Assembly: GCF_001636615.1 (NCBI RefSeq)
Contig: NZ_LGEK01000004.1
Location: 1 to 64,000 of the forward strand
Direction: 5' to 3'
DNA: 64,000 nt
DNA from: Mucilaginibacter sp. L294
GTDB taxonomy: Bacteria; Bacteroidota; Bacteroidia; Sphingobacteriales; Sphingobacteriaceae
The notes below the pieces were generated by a model that made no database searches, had not been told where the DNA came from, and worked only from the letters and a program-made list of their open reading frames with translations. Made by a program: the position numbers and the translations under genes. Positions 39,966-46,060 of the stretch are shown here, piece by piece (the stretch's first letter is position 1; every line of letters begins with the position of its first letter).

Positions 39966-41276
39966 TTACGCGTTATTCAGCAAATATCCTTTAAATTCTT
40001 CAAAGCTTGTACCTAAACTTGTGGCATGGTGTGCTTTTTTCTCCAGCTCTTTTACCTGTTCAGGGATATTGATCTTACCGGCTATCTCAGGCGCGAACAC
40101 ATCCGGGAACTTGCATGGGTGCGCGGTTGATAAAAATACACCAGCCGTATCTTTTGCCGGGTGCTCCTGCTGATAAGCTTTCAGGGCTTTCCAGGCAATG
40201 GCCGTGTGCGGGCAGGCAACATAGTTGTACGTTTTAGAGATGGCTTCAATTGCTTGCAGCGTTTCTTCATCGTTATAAGTATAACCTGCTATCAGCTTTT
40301 TAAGTGCTTCGGGGTCTTCTTTAAATAAATCGGCAATGCGTACCCAGTTGCTTGGGTTGCCCACATCCATAGCGTTTGAAAGGGTGGCTACCGATGGTTT
40401 TGGCTGATAAACGCCGGTTTTTAAAAATGCAGGCACGGTATCGTTAGCGTTGGTTGCGGCAATGAATTGCTCAACGGGCAGGCCCATTTTCCAGGCTAAT
40501 AAACCTGCGCCGATGTTGCCAAAATTACCGCTTGGTACCGCAAACACTACCTTGCTGATCCCCTCACGCAGTAACTGCGCATAAGCATTAAAGTAATAAA
40601 AAGTTTGCGGGATAAGGCGTGCTATATTGATAGAGTTTGCCGATGTTAGTCGGAATTTCTCGTTCAGTTCTTTATCAGTAAAGGCTTGTTTAACCAGTGC
40701 CTGGCAATCATCAAAAGTGCCGTCAATCTCCAGCGCGCGGATATTTTGGCCGTTGGTGGTTAACTGCAACTCCTGGATCTGACTTACCTTGCCTTTTGGA
40801 TAAAGGATGGTTACCCGGGTATTTGGCACGCCTAAAAAGCCCAGGGCAACAGCACCGCCGGTATCGCCGGATGTGGCTACTAATACGTCCAGTTGTTTTT
40901 CGCCTTCTTCTAAAAAGTAGCTCATTACGCGGCTCATAAAGCGCGCACCAAAATCTTTAAATGCCAATGATGGGCCGTGGAAAAGCTCCAGCACATAAAC
41001 GTTCTCTTCCAGCTTTACTACAGGCGCGTAAAAGTTAATAGCATCATGAATAATGGCTTTCAGGTCATCCGCAGGGATATCATCACCCAGCAGGTTTTGC
41101 GCTACATGGTAAGCAATCTCGGGCAGGGAGTACTCGTCCAGATGGTTCAGGAATTTATCATCCAGGCGGGGTATCTCTACCGGCATGTATAAGCCTTTGT
41201 CCTGCGGCATGCTGTTAAAAACCGCCTCTTTAAAACCAACTCTTAGGTCTGTATTGTTAGTGCTGTAGAATTTCAT
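39966..41276 (-). CDS. thrC: Threonine synthase
   Basis: A 436-residue PLP enzyme converting O-phosphohomoserine to threonine. The N-terminal FYSTNNTDLRVGFKEAVFNSMPQDKGLYMP is typical. The PLP lysine is in HGPSLAFKDFGARF at about residue 111, and the phosphate-binding SGDTGGAVA-type loop appears as VATSGDTGGAVALGFLG at about 140. Length fits the bacterial class. Last gene of thrA-thrB-thrC, with a 26-bp inverted repeat in the thrB-thrC gap. Confidence 0.96.
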   Translation of the reverse strand: MKFYSTNNTDLRVGFKEAVFNSMPQDKGLYMPVEIPRLDDKFLNHLDEYSLPEIAYHVAQNLLGDDIPADDLKAIIHDAINFYAPVVKLEENVYVLELFHGPSLAFKDFGARFMSRVMSYFLEEGEKQLDVLVATSGDTGGAVALGFLGVPNTRVTILYPKGKVSQIQELQLTTNGQNIRALEIDGTFDDCQALVKQAFTDKELNEKFRLTSANSINIARLIPQTFYYFNAYAQLLREGISKVVFAVPSGNFGNIGAGLLAWKMGLPVEQFIAATNANDTVPAFLKTGVYQPKPSVATLSNAMDVGNPSNWVRIADLFKEDPEALKKLIAGYTYNDEETLQAIEAISKTYNYVACPHTAIAWKALKAYQQEHPAKDTAGVFLSTAHPCKFPDVFAPEIAGKINIPEQVKELEKKAHHATSLGTSFEEFKGYLLNNA

Positions 41277-41408: not shown

Positions 41409-42401
41409 CTATCCCAAAACCCTTGGCCCTGCATCATTTATAGTTGATACGTAACCGTTAGATCCTATTTTAATACTTGTTAAATGCTTTTGCAGTTTAG
41501 ATGTGATGCGTTTTGCGGTTTCCTCATCGCGGGTAAAGGCGAATACGGACGGGCCCGAACCCGAGATACCGAAACTTACCGCGCCAAGTTCCATAGCCAT
41601 CTGGCGCATTTCGTAAAAATCGGGGATGAGCATGCTGCGTACCGGCTCAACTAAAACATCTTTCATACTGCGGCCAATCAGGTCAATATCCTGCATAAAC
41701 AGGCCACTTACCAGCCCTGCAATATTGCCCCATTGGGTTACGGCATCTTTCATCTGGATGTTTTTACGGATGATCTGCCTGGCTTCCCTTGTAGGTACAT
41801 CCACATCGGGGAATACAATGGCGCACCATAAATCTGCCGGATGCGGCAAGCGTATCACATCCAAAGGCTCATAACTGCGGATCAGAACAAAACCGCCTAA
41901 CAAAGCCGGTGCAACGTTATCGGCATGCCCGTGGCCACAAGCCATTTCCTCGCCTTTCATAGCGAAGGGAAGCAGGGTGGATGGGTCTGTATCATCGCCC
42001 AATAAAGTTTTAATGGCAAATAAACCAGCAACCGTACTGGCCGAACTTGAACCCAAGCCGCTGCCTATCGGCATTTTTTTGTGCAGCTCAATATCGAGGC
42101 CAATATCCAGCCTGTCAATACTGCGCAGGTAATGCTCTACGCTTACGCTTACGGTGTTTTTAGCCGGGTTAAGCGGCAGCCTGCCATCATCGCCGGTAAT
42201 TTTACTGATGGTGATGCCGGGTTTATCGGTTATGCGCATAATAACCTCGTCGCCGGGTTCGTTTACCGCGAAACCCAGCACATCAAACCCGCAAACCACG
42301 TTGGCAACAGTGGCAGGGGCGAAGACGGAAACCGACTCACCAACTCCCCCCCCCGCACGCTGAAGGGGGTGCTTAATATCTTGTATATCTATATTTTCCA
42401 T
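41409..42401 (-). CDS. thrB: Homoserine kinase
   Basis: A 330-residue GHMP kinase phosphorylating homoserine. The body begins VFAPATVANVVCGFDVLG at about residue 27, with the ATP loop PIGSGLGSSSASTVAG at about 110 and the C-terminal GAVSFGISGSGPSVFAF. The first 26 residues are extra relative to the usual start and are partly encoded by a G-rich copy of a dispersed repeat, including nine consecutive G on the coding strand (42346-42354). No ATG occurs downstream before the conserved domain, so the extension is apparently translated. Middle gene of the thr operon. Confidence 0.94.
   Translation of the reverse strand: MENIDIQDIKHPLQRAGGGVGESVSVFAPATVANVVCGFDVLGFAVNEPGDEVIMRITDKPGITISKITGDDGRLPLNPAKNTVSVSVEHYLRSIDRLDIGLDIELHKKMPIGSGLGSSSASTVAGLFAIKTLLGDDTDPSTLLPFAMKGEEMACGHGHADNVAPALLGGFVLIRSYEPLDVIRLPHPADLWCAIVFPDVDVPTREARQIIRKNIQMKDAVTQWGNIAGLVSGLFMQDIDLIGRSMKDVLVEPVRSMLIPDFYEMRQMAMELGAVSFGISGSGPSVFAFTRDEETAKRITSKLQKHLTSIKIGSNGYVSTINDAGPRVLG
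42346..42370. repeat. Diverged C-rich repeat with C9 tract in the thrB 5' coding region
   Basis: A run of nine C, then GCACGCTGAAGGGGGTG, resembles the TAA-CCCCC repeat but is diverged and lies in frame inside thrB codons about 11-19. Confidence 0.6.
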
Positions 42402-42418: not shown

Positions 42419-42447
42419 TGTTCCCCCTTCAGGGGGTTAGGGGGTTA
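42419..42447 (-). repeat. TAA-CCCCC palindromic repeat at the thrA stop
   Basis: Read on the minus strand, the thrA stop codon TAA continues directly into CCCCCTAACCCCCTGAAGGG. The 29-base block is identical to that at 33029-33057. Confidence 0.85.
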
Positions 42448-44895
42448 ATTCGCGCCCACATTTATCAGATCAGCAAATACGCCTGCGGCGGTTACTTCGG
42501 CACCTGCACCGGGGCCTTTTACTACCAGCGGGCGTTCTTTATACCTGTCTGTTGTGAAAGATATAATGTTATCGCTGCCGCTAAGCATGTAAAAAGGGTG
42601 GTTCTCATCTACACTTTGCAGGGTGATGGATGCCTTGCCGTTTTCCAGTTTACCTATATAGCGTAATACTTTTTTATCTTTTTCGGCCTGTTGTTTCAGG
42701 TTGGTGAAGAAAGCGTCTTCGGCTTTTAGGGCCGCGTAAAAATCCTCTACGGTTTGTGCTTCTAAACAAGCTTTTGGCAATACGCTTTCTATATCAACAT
42801 CAGCTTCTTCCATTTCGTGGCCTGCATCGCGGGCAAGGATCAGTATCTTTCGCATAAAATCCTTACCGCTTAGGTCATCGCGCGGGTCTGGTTCGGTATA
42901 CCCTTTTTCCTGTGCCTCTTTTACCACATCGTGGAAATTGGCATCGCCCTTAAAGTGATTAAAGATAAAGGAGATAGTTCCTGAAAGGATAGCTTCGATG
43001 CGTTGTATGCGGTCACCGCTGCTCATCAGGTCTTTTAAAGTACGGATGATAGGTAAGCCTGCGCCCACATTGGTTTCGTAGAAGAAATCTACACCGTGCT
43101 TGCGCGCGGTATCCCTGAATGTTTTGTATTGGGCAAATGATGCCGAGTTGCCGATCTTATTACAGGTTACTACAGATACGTTAGCTTTAAAAATATCTTC
43201 GTAAAAGGCAATTGGTTGTGGGCTGGCGGTATTATCAATAAACACACAGTTGGGCAGGTTCATTTCCTTCATCCTTGCGATGAAGCCGGCTAAGTCGGCC
43301 GCGTGGTCTGACGCCTGCAGGTCGTCCTGCCAGGTATCAAGCGATAAACCATCGGCATTGAAAACCATTTTACGGGTATTGCTGATGCCCACTATTTTAA
43401 CCTGGATGCCATTATTTTTTTGCAGGAAATCTTTATGCGCGTTCAATTGGTTGAACAGGGTTTTACCGATGTTGCCGGTACCTAAACAGAAAGCATGCAA
43501 TGTTTTGGTTAGCTCGATAAAGAAGGCATCATGCACCGCGTTCAGGGCCTTGGCCAGGTCATTCGCCGAGATAATAACCGAGATATTATACTCTGACGAG
43601 CCCTGGGCGATAGCCCTTACGTTAACACCATTACGGCCCAGTGCATGGAACAGCTTGCCGCTCATGCCCGGGGTTTGCTTCATATTTTCGCCTACTACGG
43701 CTAATATGGCCTGGTTTTTTTCTACCACCAGTGGCTCCAGCTTATTGGCCAATAGTTCCAGTTCAAACTCCTGTTCTATCAGTTGCTTGGCTTTATCAAC
43801 CTCGTTTGGCTGTACGGCAAAAGTGATGCTATGTTCTGATGATGATTGGGTAATGAGGATGATGTTGATCTGTTCTCTCGCCAGTAGTGAAAACAACCTG
43901 CCGCTAAAGCCCGATTTGCCCACCATGCCGCTACCCTCTAAATTGAGGATGCTGATATTGTTGATAGACGAGATGCCTTTGATAGGCAAGGTAGACGCTT
44001 TGCAATCATGACGGATAACCGTACCCGCAAAAGCAGGCTCAAAAGTGTTTTTGATAACGATCGGGATTTTCTTTAAAAATGCCGGGATCATGGTTGGCGG
44101 ATAGATCACCTTGGCCCCGAAGTAAGAAAGCTCCATTGCTTCGGTGTAAGTCAGTTCTTCCAGCGGGAAGGCCTTTTGCACCATGCGGGGGTCGGCGGTC
44201 ATCATACCGTTAACGTCTGTCCAGATTTGTATTTCTTCAGCATTTAAAGCCGAACCGAATATAGCTGCGGTATAATCACTACCACCACGGCCAAGTGTTG
44301 TTATCTGCCCGGCATCGTTACCCGCAATAAAGCCGGTTACAATAAGCAGTTTGTCGCTGTTTTCCTGATAAAAGGTTTTGATGAGCAGTTCAGTTAACTC
44401 GCTATTTATTTTGGCATTGCCAAAGGCGCTGTCGGTTTTGATCAGTTCAGATGCATCTACAAAAAGCACATCTTTAAAATGCTGGGCGGAAATTTTGCTT
44501 ACCATTAAGGCCGAGCAGCGCTCGCCATAGCTCAGTATCTGATCGCGGGTTTTGGGAGTAAGCTCGCGCAAGGTAAGTACGCCCTGCAATAATTCTTCAA
44601 GCTGGTTAAAGTTTATTTTTAAACGGGTGTAGGCCGGGTTTTGGTTCTGCACATCAAGCAGGGCTTTAACGGCATCAAAATGGCGTTTTTCCAATTCTGC
44701 CAATTGCGCGGTAAACTCTTTGCCTTCGGCCGCGTTCTCGGCCATGGCTACCAGCAGGTTGGTTACGCCACCCATGGCAGATAGTACAACTACCGGGCGG
44801 TTGCCGGGTTTATCCTCGTCTTTTAAAATTTCCAGTAATGTTTTTATGCTATTTACTGAACCTACCGACGTGCCGCCGAATTTTAGAATCTTCAT
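42445..44895 (-). CDS. thrA: Bifunctional aspartate kinase / homoserine dehydrogenase I
   Basis: An 816-residue fusion. Residues 1-about 290 are aspartate kinase (KILKFGGTSVGSVNS, GRGGSDYTAAIFGSAL). About 300-455 form paired ACT regulatory domains (VGKSGFSGRLFSLLAREQINIILI). About 465-815 are homoserine dehydrogenase (CLGTGNIGKTLFNQL, and LSGTISFIFNHF). It controls entry to the threonine branch and is normally inhibited by threonine. I use the ATG at 44895; a longer open frame reaches 44946 but that ATG lies inside the attenuator terminator. Expression should be set by the leader at 44914-45042. Confidence 0.96.
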   Translation of the reverse strand: MKILKFGGTSVGSVNSIKTLLEILKDEDKPGNRPVVVLSAMGGVTNLLVAMAENAAEGKEFTAQLAELEKRHFDAVKALLDVQNQNPAYTRLKINFNQLEELLQGVLTLRELTPKTRDQILSYGERCSALMVSKISAQHFKDVLFVDASELIKTDSAFGNAKINSELTELLIKTFYQENSDKLLIVTGFIAGNDAGQITTLGRGGSDYTAAIFGSALNAEEIQIWTDVNGMMTADPRMVQKAFPLEELTYTEAMELSYFGAKVIYPPTMIPAFLKKIPIVIKNTFEPAFAGTVIRHDCKASTLPIKGISSINNISILNLEGSGMVGKSGFSGRLFSLLAREQINIILITQSSSEHSITFAVQPNEVDKAKQLIEQEFELELLANKLEPLVVEKNQAILAVVGENMKQTPGMSGKLFHALGRNGVNVRAIAQGSSEYNISVIISANDLAKALNAVHDAFFIELTKTLHAFCLGTGNIGKTLFNQLNAHKDFLQKNNGIQVKIVGISNTRKMVFNADGLSLDTWQDDLQASDHAADLAGFIARMKEMNLPNCVFIDNTASPQPIAFYEDIFKANVSVVTCNKIGNSASFAQYKTFRDTARKHGVDFFYETNVGAGLPIIRTLKDLMSSGDRIQRIEAILSGTISFIFNHFKGDANFHDVVKEAQEKGYTEPDPRDDLSGKDFMRKILILARDAGHEMEEADVDIESVLPKACLEAQTVEDFYAALKAEDAFFTNLKQQAEKDKKVLRYIGKLENGKASITLQSVDENHPFYMLSGSDNIISFTTDRYKERPLVVKGPGAGAEVTAAGVFADLINVGAN

Positions 44896-44913
44896 TTTTG
44901 CGATAAAATAAAA

Positions 44914-44943
44914 AAAGCCTTCCTCTTTGCGGAGGAAGGCTTT
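44914..44943 (-). terminator. Attenuator terminator of the thr operon
   Basis: On the minus strand, a 12-bp perfect stem AAAGCCTTCCTC / GAGGAAGGCTTT with a 6-base loop is followed by TTTTTTATTTTA and then the thrA start 19 bases later. The 5' arm plus loop (44930-44938) is also exactly complementary to the end of the leader reading frame (44981-44989), so an alternative antiterminator can form. Confidence 0.9.
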
Positions 44944-44976
44944 CATTTGGTTTTTTTATGTTTTTACACCATACGA

Positions 44977-45042
44977 TTATCTTCCTCCGATATTTATCCC
45001 GGTGGTAATAATGGTAATAATTGTGGTGTTGTTAATTGTCAT
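44977..45042 (-). CDS. thrL: Threonine operon leader peptide (attenuator)
   Basis: A 21-codon open frame beginning MTINNTTIITIITT, with 6 Thr and 7 Ile among 21 residues, then a TAA stop. It ends about 80 bases upstream of thrA and is followed by an intrinsic terminator. The composition matches the leader-peptide principle of the E. coli thr operon: shortage of charged Thr or Ile tRNA would stall the ribosome on these codons. The last codons contain CGGAGGAAG, able to pair with the terminator 5' arm. A completed ribosome sitting at the stop would cover this segment and permit termination. It is a peptide gene too short for standard gene finders. Confidence 0.88.
   Translation of the reverse strand: MTINNTTIITIITTGINIGGR
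44981..44989 (-). promoter_or_regulatory. Antiterminator strand of the thr attenuator
   Basis: CGGAGGAAG on the minus strand is the exact 9-base complement of CTTCCTCCG at 44930-44938, which is the terminator 5' arm and part of its loop. Pairing of the two excludes the terminator. Confidence 0.8.
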
Positions 45043-45084
45043 ATATATTATGTCGGTAAAGTAAGTAGATTTTATTTTAAATAC

Positions 45085-45112
45085 CAAATGTAAATTGGTT
45101 TTATTTTTTCAA
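45085..45112 (-). promoter_or_regulatory. Putative thr operon promoter
   Basis: On the minus strand, TTG (45112-45110), a 17-base spacer and TACATTTG (45092-45085) fit the Bacteroidota consensus. Transcription would start near 45078, leaving about 35 bases before the leader ATG at 45042. Confidence 0.5.
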
Positions 45113-45142: not shown

Positions 45143-46060
45143 ATGCAGGGACTTATAACAAAATCGACCGGGAGCTGGTACCAGGTAAGAAGCGGTGACG
45201 AAACCATCGATTGCCGGATCAAAGGGAAATTCCGGATAAAGGGTATCACAACAACCAACCCACTGGCGGTTGGCGATGTGGTTGATTTTGATATGGAACC
45301 GGAGCAGGGCACCGGTATTATCACCAATCTGCATCAGCGTAAGAACTATATCATCCGTAAATCTATTAACCTATCCAAACAGGCGCAGATCATCGCGTCA
45401 AACCTGGATAGGGCATTGCTGGTGGTTACCCTTGCCTCGCCACGCACCTCATTGGGTTTTATCGACCGCTTTTTAGTTACTGCCGAAGCTTACGATGTCC
45501 CCGCCTGTTTAATATTTAATAAGCTCGACCTTTTTAGCGATGAAGGATTAGAGATACTGGCCGATTACCAGGCCGTTTACGAAAACATTGGCTACCCATG
45601 TTATTCAGTATCGGCCTTAGAAGGAACCAATATAGATGAAGTACAAAACTTGCTGAAAGATAAGGTGACGCTTTTCTCCGGCCACTCGGGCGTGGGTAAA
45701 TCCAGCCTCATTAACCGTTTGCTGCCTGATCTTGACCTGCGCACGCACATGGTATCTGAATGGAGCGACAAGGGTATGCACACCACCACCTTTGCCGAAA
45801 TGTTTGAACTACCACAGGGCGGCTATATTATTGATACCCCCGGCATTCGTGAATTAGGTGTTATCGATATAGAAAAAGAAGTGCTGAGCCATTTCTTCCC
45901 TGAAATGCGCGAACGGATGAACCAATGCCGTTTCAACAACTGCCGCCACATCAACGAGCCGGGCTGTGCGGTGCTGGATGCGCTGGAAGAAGGCGAAATA
46001 TCACAATCGCGGTATGATAGCTATTTGAGTATTTATCATGGGAATGATACCAGGGCTTAA
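45143..46060 (+). CDS. rsgA: Small ribosomal subunit biogenesis GTPase RsgA
   Basis: A 305-residue circularly permuted GTPase. An N-terminal OB fold (LITKSTGSWYQV to GIITNLHQRKNYIIRK, 1-70) precedes the G domain, whose motifs occur in the order NKLD (about 133), FSGHSGVGKSSLINRL (about 178-193), DTPGIRE (about 230). A zinc-binding C-terminal part, CRFNNCRHINEPGCAV, follows. It matures the 30S subunit. It is divergent from the thr operon. Confidence 0.96.
   Translation: MQGLITKSTGSWYQVRSGDETIDCRIKGKFRIKGITTTNPLAVGDVVDFDMEPEQGTGIITNLHQRKNYIIRKSINLSKQAQIIASNLDRALLVVTLASPRTSLGFIDRFLVTAEAYDVPACLIFNKLDLFSDEGLEILADYQAVYENIGYPCYSVSALEGTNIDEVQNLLKDKVTLFSGHSGVGKSSLINRLLPDLDLRTHMVSEWSDKGMHTTTFAEMFELPQGGYIIDTPGIRELGVIDIEKEVLSHFFPEMRERMNQCRFNNCRHINEPGCAVLDALEEGEISQSRYDSYLSIYHGNDTRA

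Follow-up and report, generated by a model that had tools for sequence, protein, structure and literature searches.

We analysed a window of 64,000 nucleotides from Mucilaginibacter sp. L294 (contig NZ_LGEK01000004.1, positions 1 to 64,000), the window being the whole stretch of DNA under analysis. Its minus strand carries thrA, bifunctional aspartate kinase/homoserine dehydrogenase I of 816 aa (42445..44895), thrB, homoserine kinase (41409..42401), and thrC, threonine synthase (39966..41276). These three genes were identified by NCBIfam equivalog models scoring over their cut-offs, namely NF006959 for thrA (1051.5 bits, cut-off 726), NF002288 and TIGR00191 for thrB (376.6 and 220.1 bits, both over cut-off) and TIGR00260 for thrC (304.5 bits, cut-off 167.1). 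The divergent neighbour on the plus strand is rsgA (45143..46060; TIGR00157, 233.3 bits, cut-off 100). The candidate attenuator lies between the genes rsgA and thrA, on the minus strand. Reading from 45042, a leader frame comes first, then 32 nt and a hairpin of 13 bp whose loop has six bases, with a T-rich tail after it. All positions given in the original prediction are correct; the strand, which was not stated there, is the minus strand.

The ThrA start lies 17 nt 3' of the hairpin. It was placed at 44895, with the conserved beginning MKILKFGG, as the relatives align from there. An in-frame ATG at 44946, within the terminator, yields a mechanical ORF of 833 aa, and automatic annotation may lengthen thrA by 17 codons across the attenuator. 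The nearest ThrA among named genomes, in the best 80 of 330 relatives, is that of Mucilaginibacter rigui (98%). By eye, a palindromic repeat, GGCCTCACCC..CTCTCC..GAGAGG..GTGAGGC, was seen between attenuator and thrA in several Mucilaginibacter (L032-L036, L038, L039, L050, L057, L067 and L110, in each between terminator and thrA). The repeat GGCCTCACCC..GTGAGGC is not present between terminator and thrA in the window.

The leader ORF (44977..45042, minus strand) has 21 codons and encodes MTINNTTIITIITTGINIGGR before its stop codon. It contains 6 Thr and 7 Ile, and the Thr/Ile run ends at codon 14; the 21-codon Thr/Ile frame first proposed is correctly placed. Conservation was followed in a genus sample, made of the best 80 of 330 relatives (most titled Mucilaginibacter, the rest Bacteroidetes or Sphingobacteriaceae bacterium), and in a family sample, in which 133 of 151 genomes have ThrA and the 113 outside the genus were used; G171, whose match is without the ThrA start, was left out. 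A leader was counted where a stretch of 10 codons with at least 7 Thr/Ile codons lay in a short ORF no more than 330 nt upstream of thrA. Such a leader is present in 79/80 genus loci and 108/113 other family loci, together 187/193, compared with 1/400 and 1/565 dinucleotide shuffles, respectively (2/965 in total), and with 0/193 reverse complements (0/80 in the genus). The single genus miss, L069, has its leader farther upstream, 269 nt before thrA, which brings the genus to 80/80. The comparison of relatives upstream of thrA that had been proposed as a check thus finds the Thr/Ile run kept in 187 of the 193 loci, plus L069. With the threshold at 6 or more of 10 codons, 189 of the 193 loci have a leader. 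In the wider class, 5 of 25 thr loci reach 7 Thr/Ile codons, with one of the 25 (L166) mis-cut; its start was not found, leaving 24 usable. Across 78 genus leaders both Thr and Ile are found at every position among the final eight of the run. The mixing is strong at positions -3 to -8 (at -4, for example, 19 Thr, 53 Ile and 6 other), and several synonymous Thr/Ile codons are in use.

Upstream of the leader a promoter is predicted at 45057..45087 (minus strand), with TTG at 45087-45085 and, after 20 nt, a -7-like box, TTACTTTA, at 45064-45057. Transcription would be expected to start near 45052, about 10 nt before the leader ATG, with the distance between -7 box and start as given in a passage of PMC9723704. 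The pattern used, TTG, 19-21 nt and then TT[AT]NTTT[AG] or T[AT]ANTTT[AG], was set after looking at the sequences, and this post hoc choice occurs in 75 of the 78 genus loci having 100 nt before the leader, vs 12/1560 shuffles; in 57 of these 75 the box ends 10-16 nt 5' of the leader. By its consensus, the genus pattern resembles the phylum's primary sigma site, described in passages of PMC7366714 and PMC9723704 as TAnnTTTG at -7 and TTTG near -33. In the same 78 loci a general promoter score, built on the textbook consensus, was no better than in shuffles, the score being mostly 7 in both. Another candidate for the -7 element, an exact TAnnTTTG box at 45092-45085, was dropped; the pair conserved in the genus is TTG-N20-TTACTTTA, just downstream. 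As regards translation initiation, a Kozak-like A at -3 is described for Flavobacterium johnsoniae in part of PMC6847099, and this A is absent in 50 of 75 genus leaders with an ATG start.

The intrinsic terminator was located by the detector at 44905..44944 (minus strand), with arms 44944-44932 and 44925-44913, the loop CGCAAA and the tail TTTATTTT. Its stem has 13 bp, with -20.2 kcal/mol, followed by TTTATTTT; the 12-bp stem and T tail noticed earlier before thrA are confirmed, the detector adding one bp. Among the 193 loci, 183 have a detector terminator, and in 175 a terminator below -10 kcal/mol lies between leader and thrA, as counted by a detector of perfect stems. In an alignment (A1) of 125 sequences, consisting of the window and 124 of these 175 loci with genus members thinned to every third, 95.8% of the cells of the stem are paired. 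Nine of 12 pairs changed on both sides, with 174 double-change cells vs a shuffled mean of 52.4, and the covariation score is 0.377 vs 0.163 in shuffles. The predicted terminator stem covaries strongly. The region 44890-45065 folds with z = -5.7, equalled by 0/200 shuffles, and much of this is contributed by the terminator.

An ordinary terminator, with a small frame that is incidental, would give constitutive partial termination without sensing. Terminator-like hairpins are common, as the Rfam Thr_leader model RF00506, with E no higher than 0.1, matches the own genome 17 times, and two family loci where it matched elsewhere (L273 and L274) are plain terminators. Against such a reading stand the Thr/Ile run, kept before thrA far beyond shuffles, the end of the frame, which tracks the terminator arm across genera (see below), and the position of the terminator between divergent genes: since rsgA is divergent, no minus-strand upstream gene adjoins the terminator that it could end. 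We consider simple termination very unlikely.

The alternative pairing was studied in a set of 175 loci, namely those not in g21 whose stem is below -10 kcal/mol. Dropped from the 193 were L069, with its leader further upstream, the loci whose stems are imperfect for the detector (seen by eye in most; L081, L104, L107, L202, L204, L207, L215, L221, L243 and L244), those of g21, which have another design (L263-L266), and those in which no leader was seen (L261, L262 and L267). In the window, segment 2 (TCGGAGGAAG..TCGTATGGT, 44968..44990, minus strand) comprises the last leader codons, the stop codon and 9 nt beyond, and segment 3 (ACCAAATGA..CTTCCTCCG, 44929..44951, minus strand) is the 3' half of the putative antiterminator and contains the 5' arm of the terminator. 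At the end of the leader frame, CGGAGGAAG (44989..44981) is the exact complement of CTTCCTCCG (44938..44930) in the terminator 5' arm region, so that the 9-nt complementarity of the original prediction is found where it had been placed. When the tail was shuffled by mononucleotides, 4 of 5000 shuffles gave a complement of at least 9 nt. Over the 175 loci the own 2:3 duplex has a median of -17.3 kcal/mol, and in 144 of the 175 loci no more than 5 of 100 tail shuffles do as well.

Compensatory replacement is clearest in genus g30. Fifteen of its loci have GTCCCGA, CTCCCGA or CCCCGA as terminator arm in place of CTTCCTC, and the same 15 have CGGGGC, CGGGAC, TGGGGAAA or TCGGGAG at the leader end in place of GGAGGAAG; in the remaining g30 loci CTTCC is retained, or CCCCC is found. 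When 40 sampled CTTCC-type loci served as foreign partners, the own pairing was stronger than the median of the swaps in both directions in 15/15 of these CCCGA-arm loci, all from g30. The compensatory changes anticipated by the original prediction are thus met with in relatives, which keep the alternative pairing, the arm being replaced compensatorily in part of the family. In a permutation over 109 loci of 18 genera, the mean of the own pairings was -16.41 vs -14.00 when permuted, i.e. better by a mean of 2.4 kcal/mol, and 0/2000 permutations came as low; when each genus was represented by one locus, 0.2% of draws did. In 85 of the 109 loci the own pairing is stronger than the median of swaps with other genera, a modest effect because 155 of the 175 loci have CTTCC in common. 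On the MAFFT alignment A1, the paired cells, the double-change cells and the score of 2:3 were all above shuffles (0/500 each); the pairs with double changes were 10 vs 9.1 shuffled (187/500 as high), and further pair types were not above shuffles (201/500). This alignment looks misaligned at segment 2 between genera, and the alignment-free swaps were used alongside it. Taken by its sequence, the putative antiterminator segment changes together with the terminator arm across genera.

The motif GGAGGA, present at 116 loci, is read in frame 0 in 85, in frame 1 in 23 and in frame 2 in 8, giving peptide ends such as GGR, RRK and EEG. Since its reading frame varies, it is the RNA and not the peptide that is conserved. 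A GGAGG is complementary to the anti-Shine-Dalgarno sequence, and GGAGGAAG might be an internal Shine-Dalgarno-like site at which the ribosome would pause, or after which it would restart at the short AUGGUGUAA frame beyond the stop, the control being translational; in the window an ATG does lie about 11 nt downstream of GGAGG. Where the terminator arm differs, however, the site differs too and is not Shine-Dalgarno-like (CGGGG, TCGGGAG or TGGGGGA), and Shine-Dalgarno sequences are described, in parts of PMC6847099 and PMC3155529, as generally absent in Bacteroidota. Such translational control appears even less probable than simple termination.

Segment 1 would protect segment 2 in a hairpin, 1:2, which has two parts. 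The outer part, ACACCA in codons 5-7 (45024..45029, minus strand), pairs with UGGUGU at 44971-44966, and the inner part, CC.A.CCGG in codons 13-15, pairs with UCGG.A.GG. The protector is present in the minimum-energy fold, with 67% of cells paired and further pair types not above shuffles, and covariation argues weakly for this predicted hairpin. In the naked nascent RNA, 2:3 (-22.5) is stronger than 1:2 (-16.9), and therefore the untranslated state is not clearly off.

The geometry of the segments was measured over the 175 loci. Segment 2 begins at a median of 10 nt past the last Thr/Ile codon, its start precedes the end of the stop codon in 166/175, and it extends no more than 12 nt past the stop in 164/175, whereas the terminator starts more than 12 nt past the leader stop in 175/175. 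With a ribosome footprint assumed to reach 9 nt beyond the A-site codon, it follows that a ribosome at the stop codon would mask segment 2 and not segment 3, and that one held early enough in the run would leave segments 2 and 3 largely free. When the nascent RNA up to the terminator loop was folded with the ribosome at Thr14, the antiterminator formed with -21.8 kcal/mol, while with the ribosome at the stop nothing stable was obtained (-0.5). The full-length equilibrium fold is the terminator at each ribosome position tried. Since the terminator wins in the complete RNA, the switch must be kinetic, and timing decides. The parts of a thr attenuator, their conservation, their geometry and their compensatory changes are observed at these loci.

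In the mechanism that we propose, polymerase would start near 45052 and make the leader RNA. With Thr-tRNA and Ile-tRNA ample, the ribosome would reach the stop codon at 44979-44977 and cover segment 2; segment 3 would then be free for segment 4, the terminator would form and transcription would end near 44905. Under a shortage of Thr or Ile, the ribosome would stall in the Thr/Ile run with segment 2 uncovered, and the free segment 2 would form with segment 3 a long antiterminator hairpin, allowing polymerase to continue into thrA-thrB-thrC. Transcription and translation of the leader, stalling of the ribosome and a response to amino acids are what we infer here, and it is highly probable, judged from the sequences compared, that a ribosome-mediated transcription attenuator controls thrABC.

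A riboswitch, a T-box or a protein-bound leader would instead sense threonine without translation. The leader is structured, as its fold z of -5.7 indicates, but no Rfam family reaches its cut-off in the region, the best being Thr_leader itself (RF00506) with 33.9 bits, below the gathering cut-off of 55, and the conserved features of the leader are codons and alternative pairings. Sensing without translation is the least probable of the alternatives considered, and ribosome-mediated attenuation is the reading that we retain. RF00506 is over its cut-off in 0/151 family genomes. Counting matches at E up to 0.1, it is found in 148/151 family genomes and in 129/149 class genomes (1 over cut-off); many of these weak matches come as a pair at one site, one on each strand, which is what terminators would give, and the best match of the own genome lies elsewhere, with 34.3 bits. 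Among the 20 best matches in the 151 family genomes, 12 are directly upstream of thrA on the same strand, all below cut-off, and this enrichment supports what appears to be a real likeness to Thr_leader. As a finder of thr leaders the model was rejected, none of five matched loci (L268, L269, L272, L273 and L274) being a thr leader before thrA. L268, the single match above its cut-off, is a long Thr-repeat frame followed by a terminator.

Other arrangements were seen around the family. Several thr leaders of g21, and of class relatives that do not belong to the family, finish in a short palindrome placed at or close to the stop codon (ACCCCTTAGGGGT, ACGGGGTAACCCGT, ACCCC..GGGGT and similar), mostly, by eye, without a clear terminator and about 70-190 nt before thrA (L149, L150, L153, L154, L156, L158, L159, L161, L164, L165, L167 and L263-L266). 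They are Thr-rich in most cases, weakly so in L165 and L167, and are possibly a second design of thr attenuation. At L144 (family f36, with a ThrA 61% identical) the leader contains Met besides Thr and Ile (..MTTIMSIM..) and is followed by a GAAGGCCTTCCTC terminator; judging from these codons, Met may be sensed too. No leader lies directly upstream of ilvB in the upstream regions of the own genome.

The own genome also has a his leader, encoding MNGLNTYHLHLHHHHHVVIR and a stop codon (L278; hisG at G000:C283:13937-14479, minus strand). A sequence TCTACGYGA is located 3' of the leader in this his leader and in the class thr leaders L164 and L165, hinting at a shared element. Of the 48 family genomes that have hisG, 31 hisG loci were examined, and 30 of these have a His leader. 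The family his leaders (L278, L281-L310) are without a separate intrinsic terminator and show two hairpins, one at the leader end (ATCGCC..GGCGAT, with the His codons as one arm in the own genome) and a second, GUUUC-UACGU-GAAAC or a variant, in 26/31 loci. The terminator detector found 1/31, L286 at -8.3 kcal/mol, which is the leader-end hairpin itself. In 26 aligned sequences 97% of the cells are paired, with 17 double-change cells vs 4.7 shuffled; the pairs with double changes, 4 vs 2.9, do not exceed shuffles, and for the first hairpin the support is one pair with double changes. Covariation supports the predicted his hairpins, the second better than the first. An Rfam scan of 8 his and 4 thr loci gave nothing at cut-off except a tRNA. 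In the rest of the class, 23 of 27 hisG loci have a His leader, 18 have a terminator and 5 match the hairpin search. The family his leader may be the more novel item of the two.

The thr leader of the Sphingobacteriaceae, as its sequence is best read, is a putative case of ribosome-mediated thr attenuation, of known kind. Vitreschak et al. (2004) reportedly predicted thr attenuators by comparative genomics, with an abstract said to mention some Bacteroidetes/Chlorobi cases. Bacteroid-trp RNA (RF01692) precedes trp genes, an operon other than thr. It is tabulated as a candidate cis-regulatory RNA of Bacteroidetes in PMC2864571, and RF01692 is not among the 24 Rfam matches up to E = 5 in the thr leader region. 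A paper on the Flavobacterium psychrophilum transcriptome (PMC9723704) reports strong indications that leader peptides attenuate amino acid operons, with pheA and hisG named among the conserved 5' elements. Those leaders have the phylum and the proposed mechanism in common with the Sphingobacteriaceae thr leader, but belong to another family, and the attenuation section of PMC9723704 gives no structure. The original prediction had singled out a leader of this kind in Bacteroidota as deserving study; that it is unusual for the phylum stands only in part, leader-peptide attenuation having already been suggested in the phylum (PMC9723704). Small ORFs reminiscent of attenuation leaders are also mentioned in the Bacteroides thetaiotaomicron map, in a passage of PMC7366714. 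A search by title and abstract, mostly without subscription journals, found no publication on a thr leader in Sphingobacteriaceae. The comparative evidence points to ribosome-coupled attenuation of thrABC as a family-wide trait in a Bacteroidota lineage, in contrast with a 2013 survey suggesting, in the parts concerned, that the Rfam amino acid attenuator motifs may stem from gammaproteobacteria with very few transfers, its Bacteroidetes sample being 11 Bacteroidaceae genomes (PMC3766115). The system lends itself to tests of how transcription and translation are coupled in a phylum whose primary sigma factor differs and whose initiation is non-Shine-Dalgarno, and it is a candidate for a threonine-responsive switch that Mucilaginibacter and its family possess natively.

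The closest known system is the thr operon of E. coli, whose thrL (L338, from NZ_CP030240.1) was measured with the same script. Common to both are the gene order thrA-thrB-thrC, a 21-codon Thr/Ile leader with ITTG, a terminator with a 13-bp stem and a 6-nt loop, and a segment 2 in the last leader codons and stop, which starts before the end of the stop by 13 nt in E. coli thrL and 14 nt here. The arm sequences and the peptide differ, the distance from leader stop to terminator is 32 nt here and 19 nt in E. coli thrL, and the promoter predicted here is of Bacteroidota type. ThrA shares 37% identity with the E. coli protein and 43-61% with those of the 24 class relatives, and in the ThrA tree it groups with its own family and L144 at 100/100, on the Bacteroidota side; identity and tree together rule out a recent transfer of the thr operon from enterobacteria. 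The layout in common with E. coli thrL may be convergent or very old. A joint reading, which we put forward tentatively and hold to be somewhat doubtful, is that the Sphingobacteriaceae attenuator arose independently of the enterobacterial one and converged on the 21-codon layout, that it works with non-Shine-Dalgarno ribosomes on an mRNA with a 5' end of only about 10 nt, and that within the class the designs traded places, the Sphingobacteriaceae using a terminator at thr and, at his, a two-hairpin leader that is terminator-less, and many other sampled families a terminator for his and a leader-end palindrome for thr. If this independent origin and exchange of designs were true, the terminator-less leaders would be an undescribed class of leader-peptide control.
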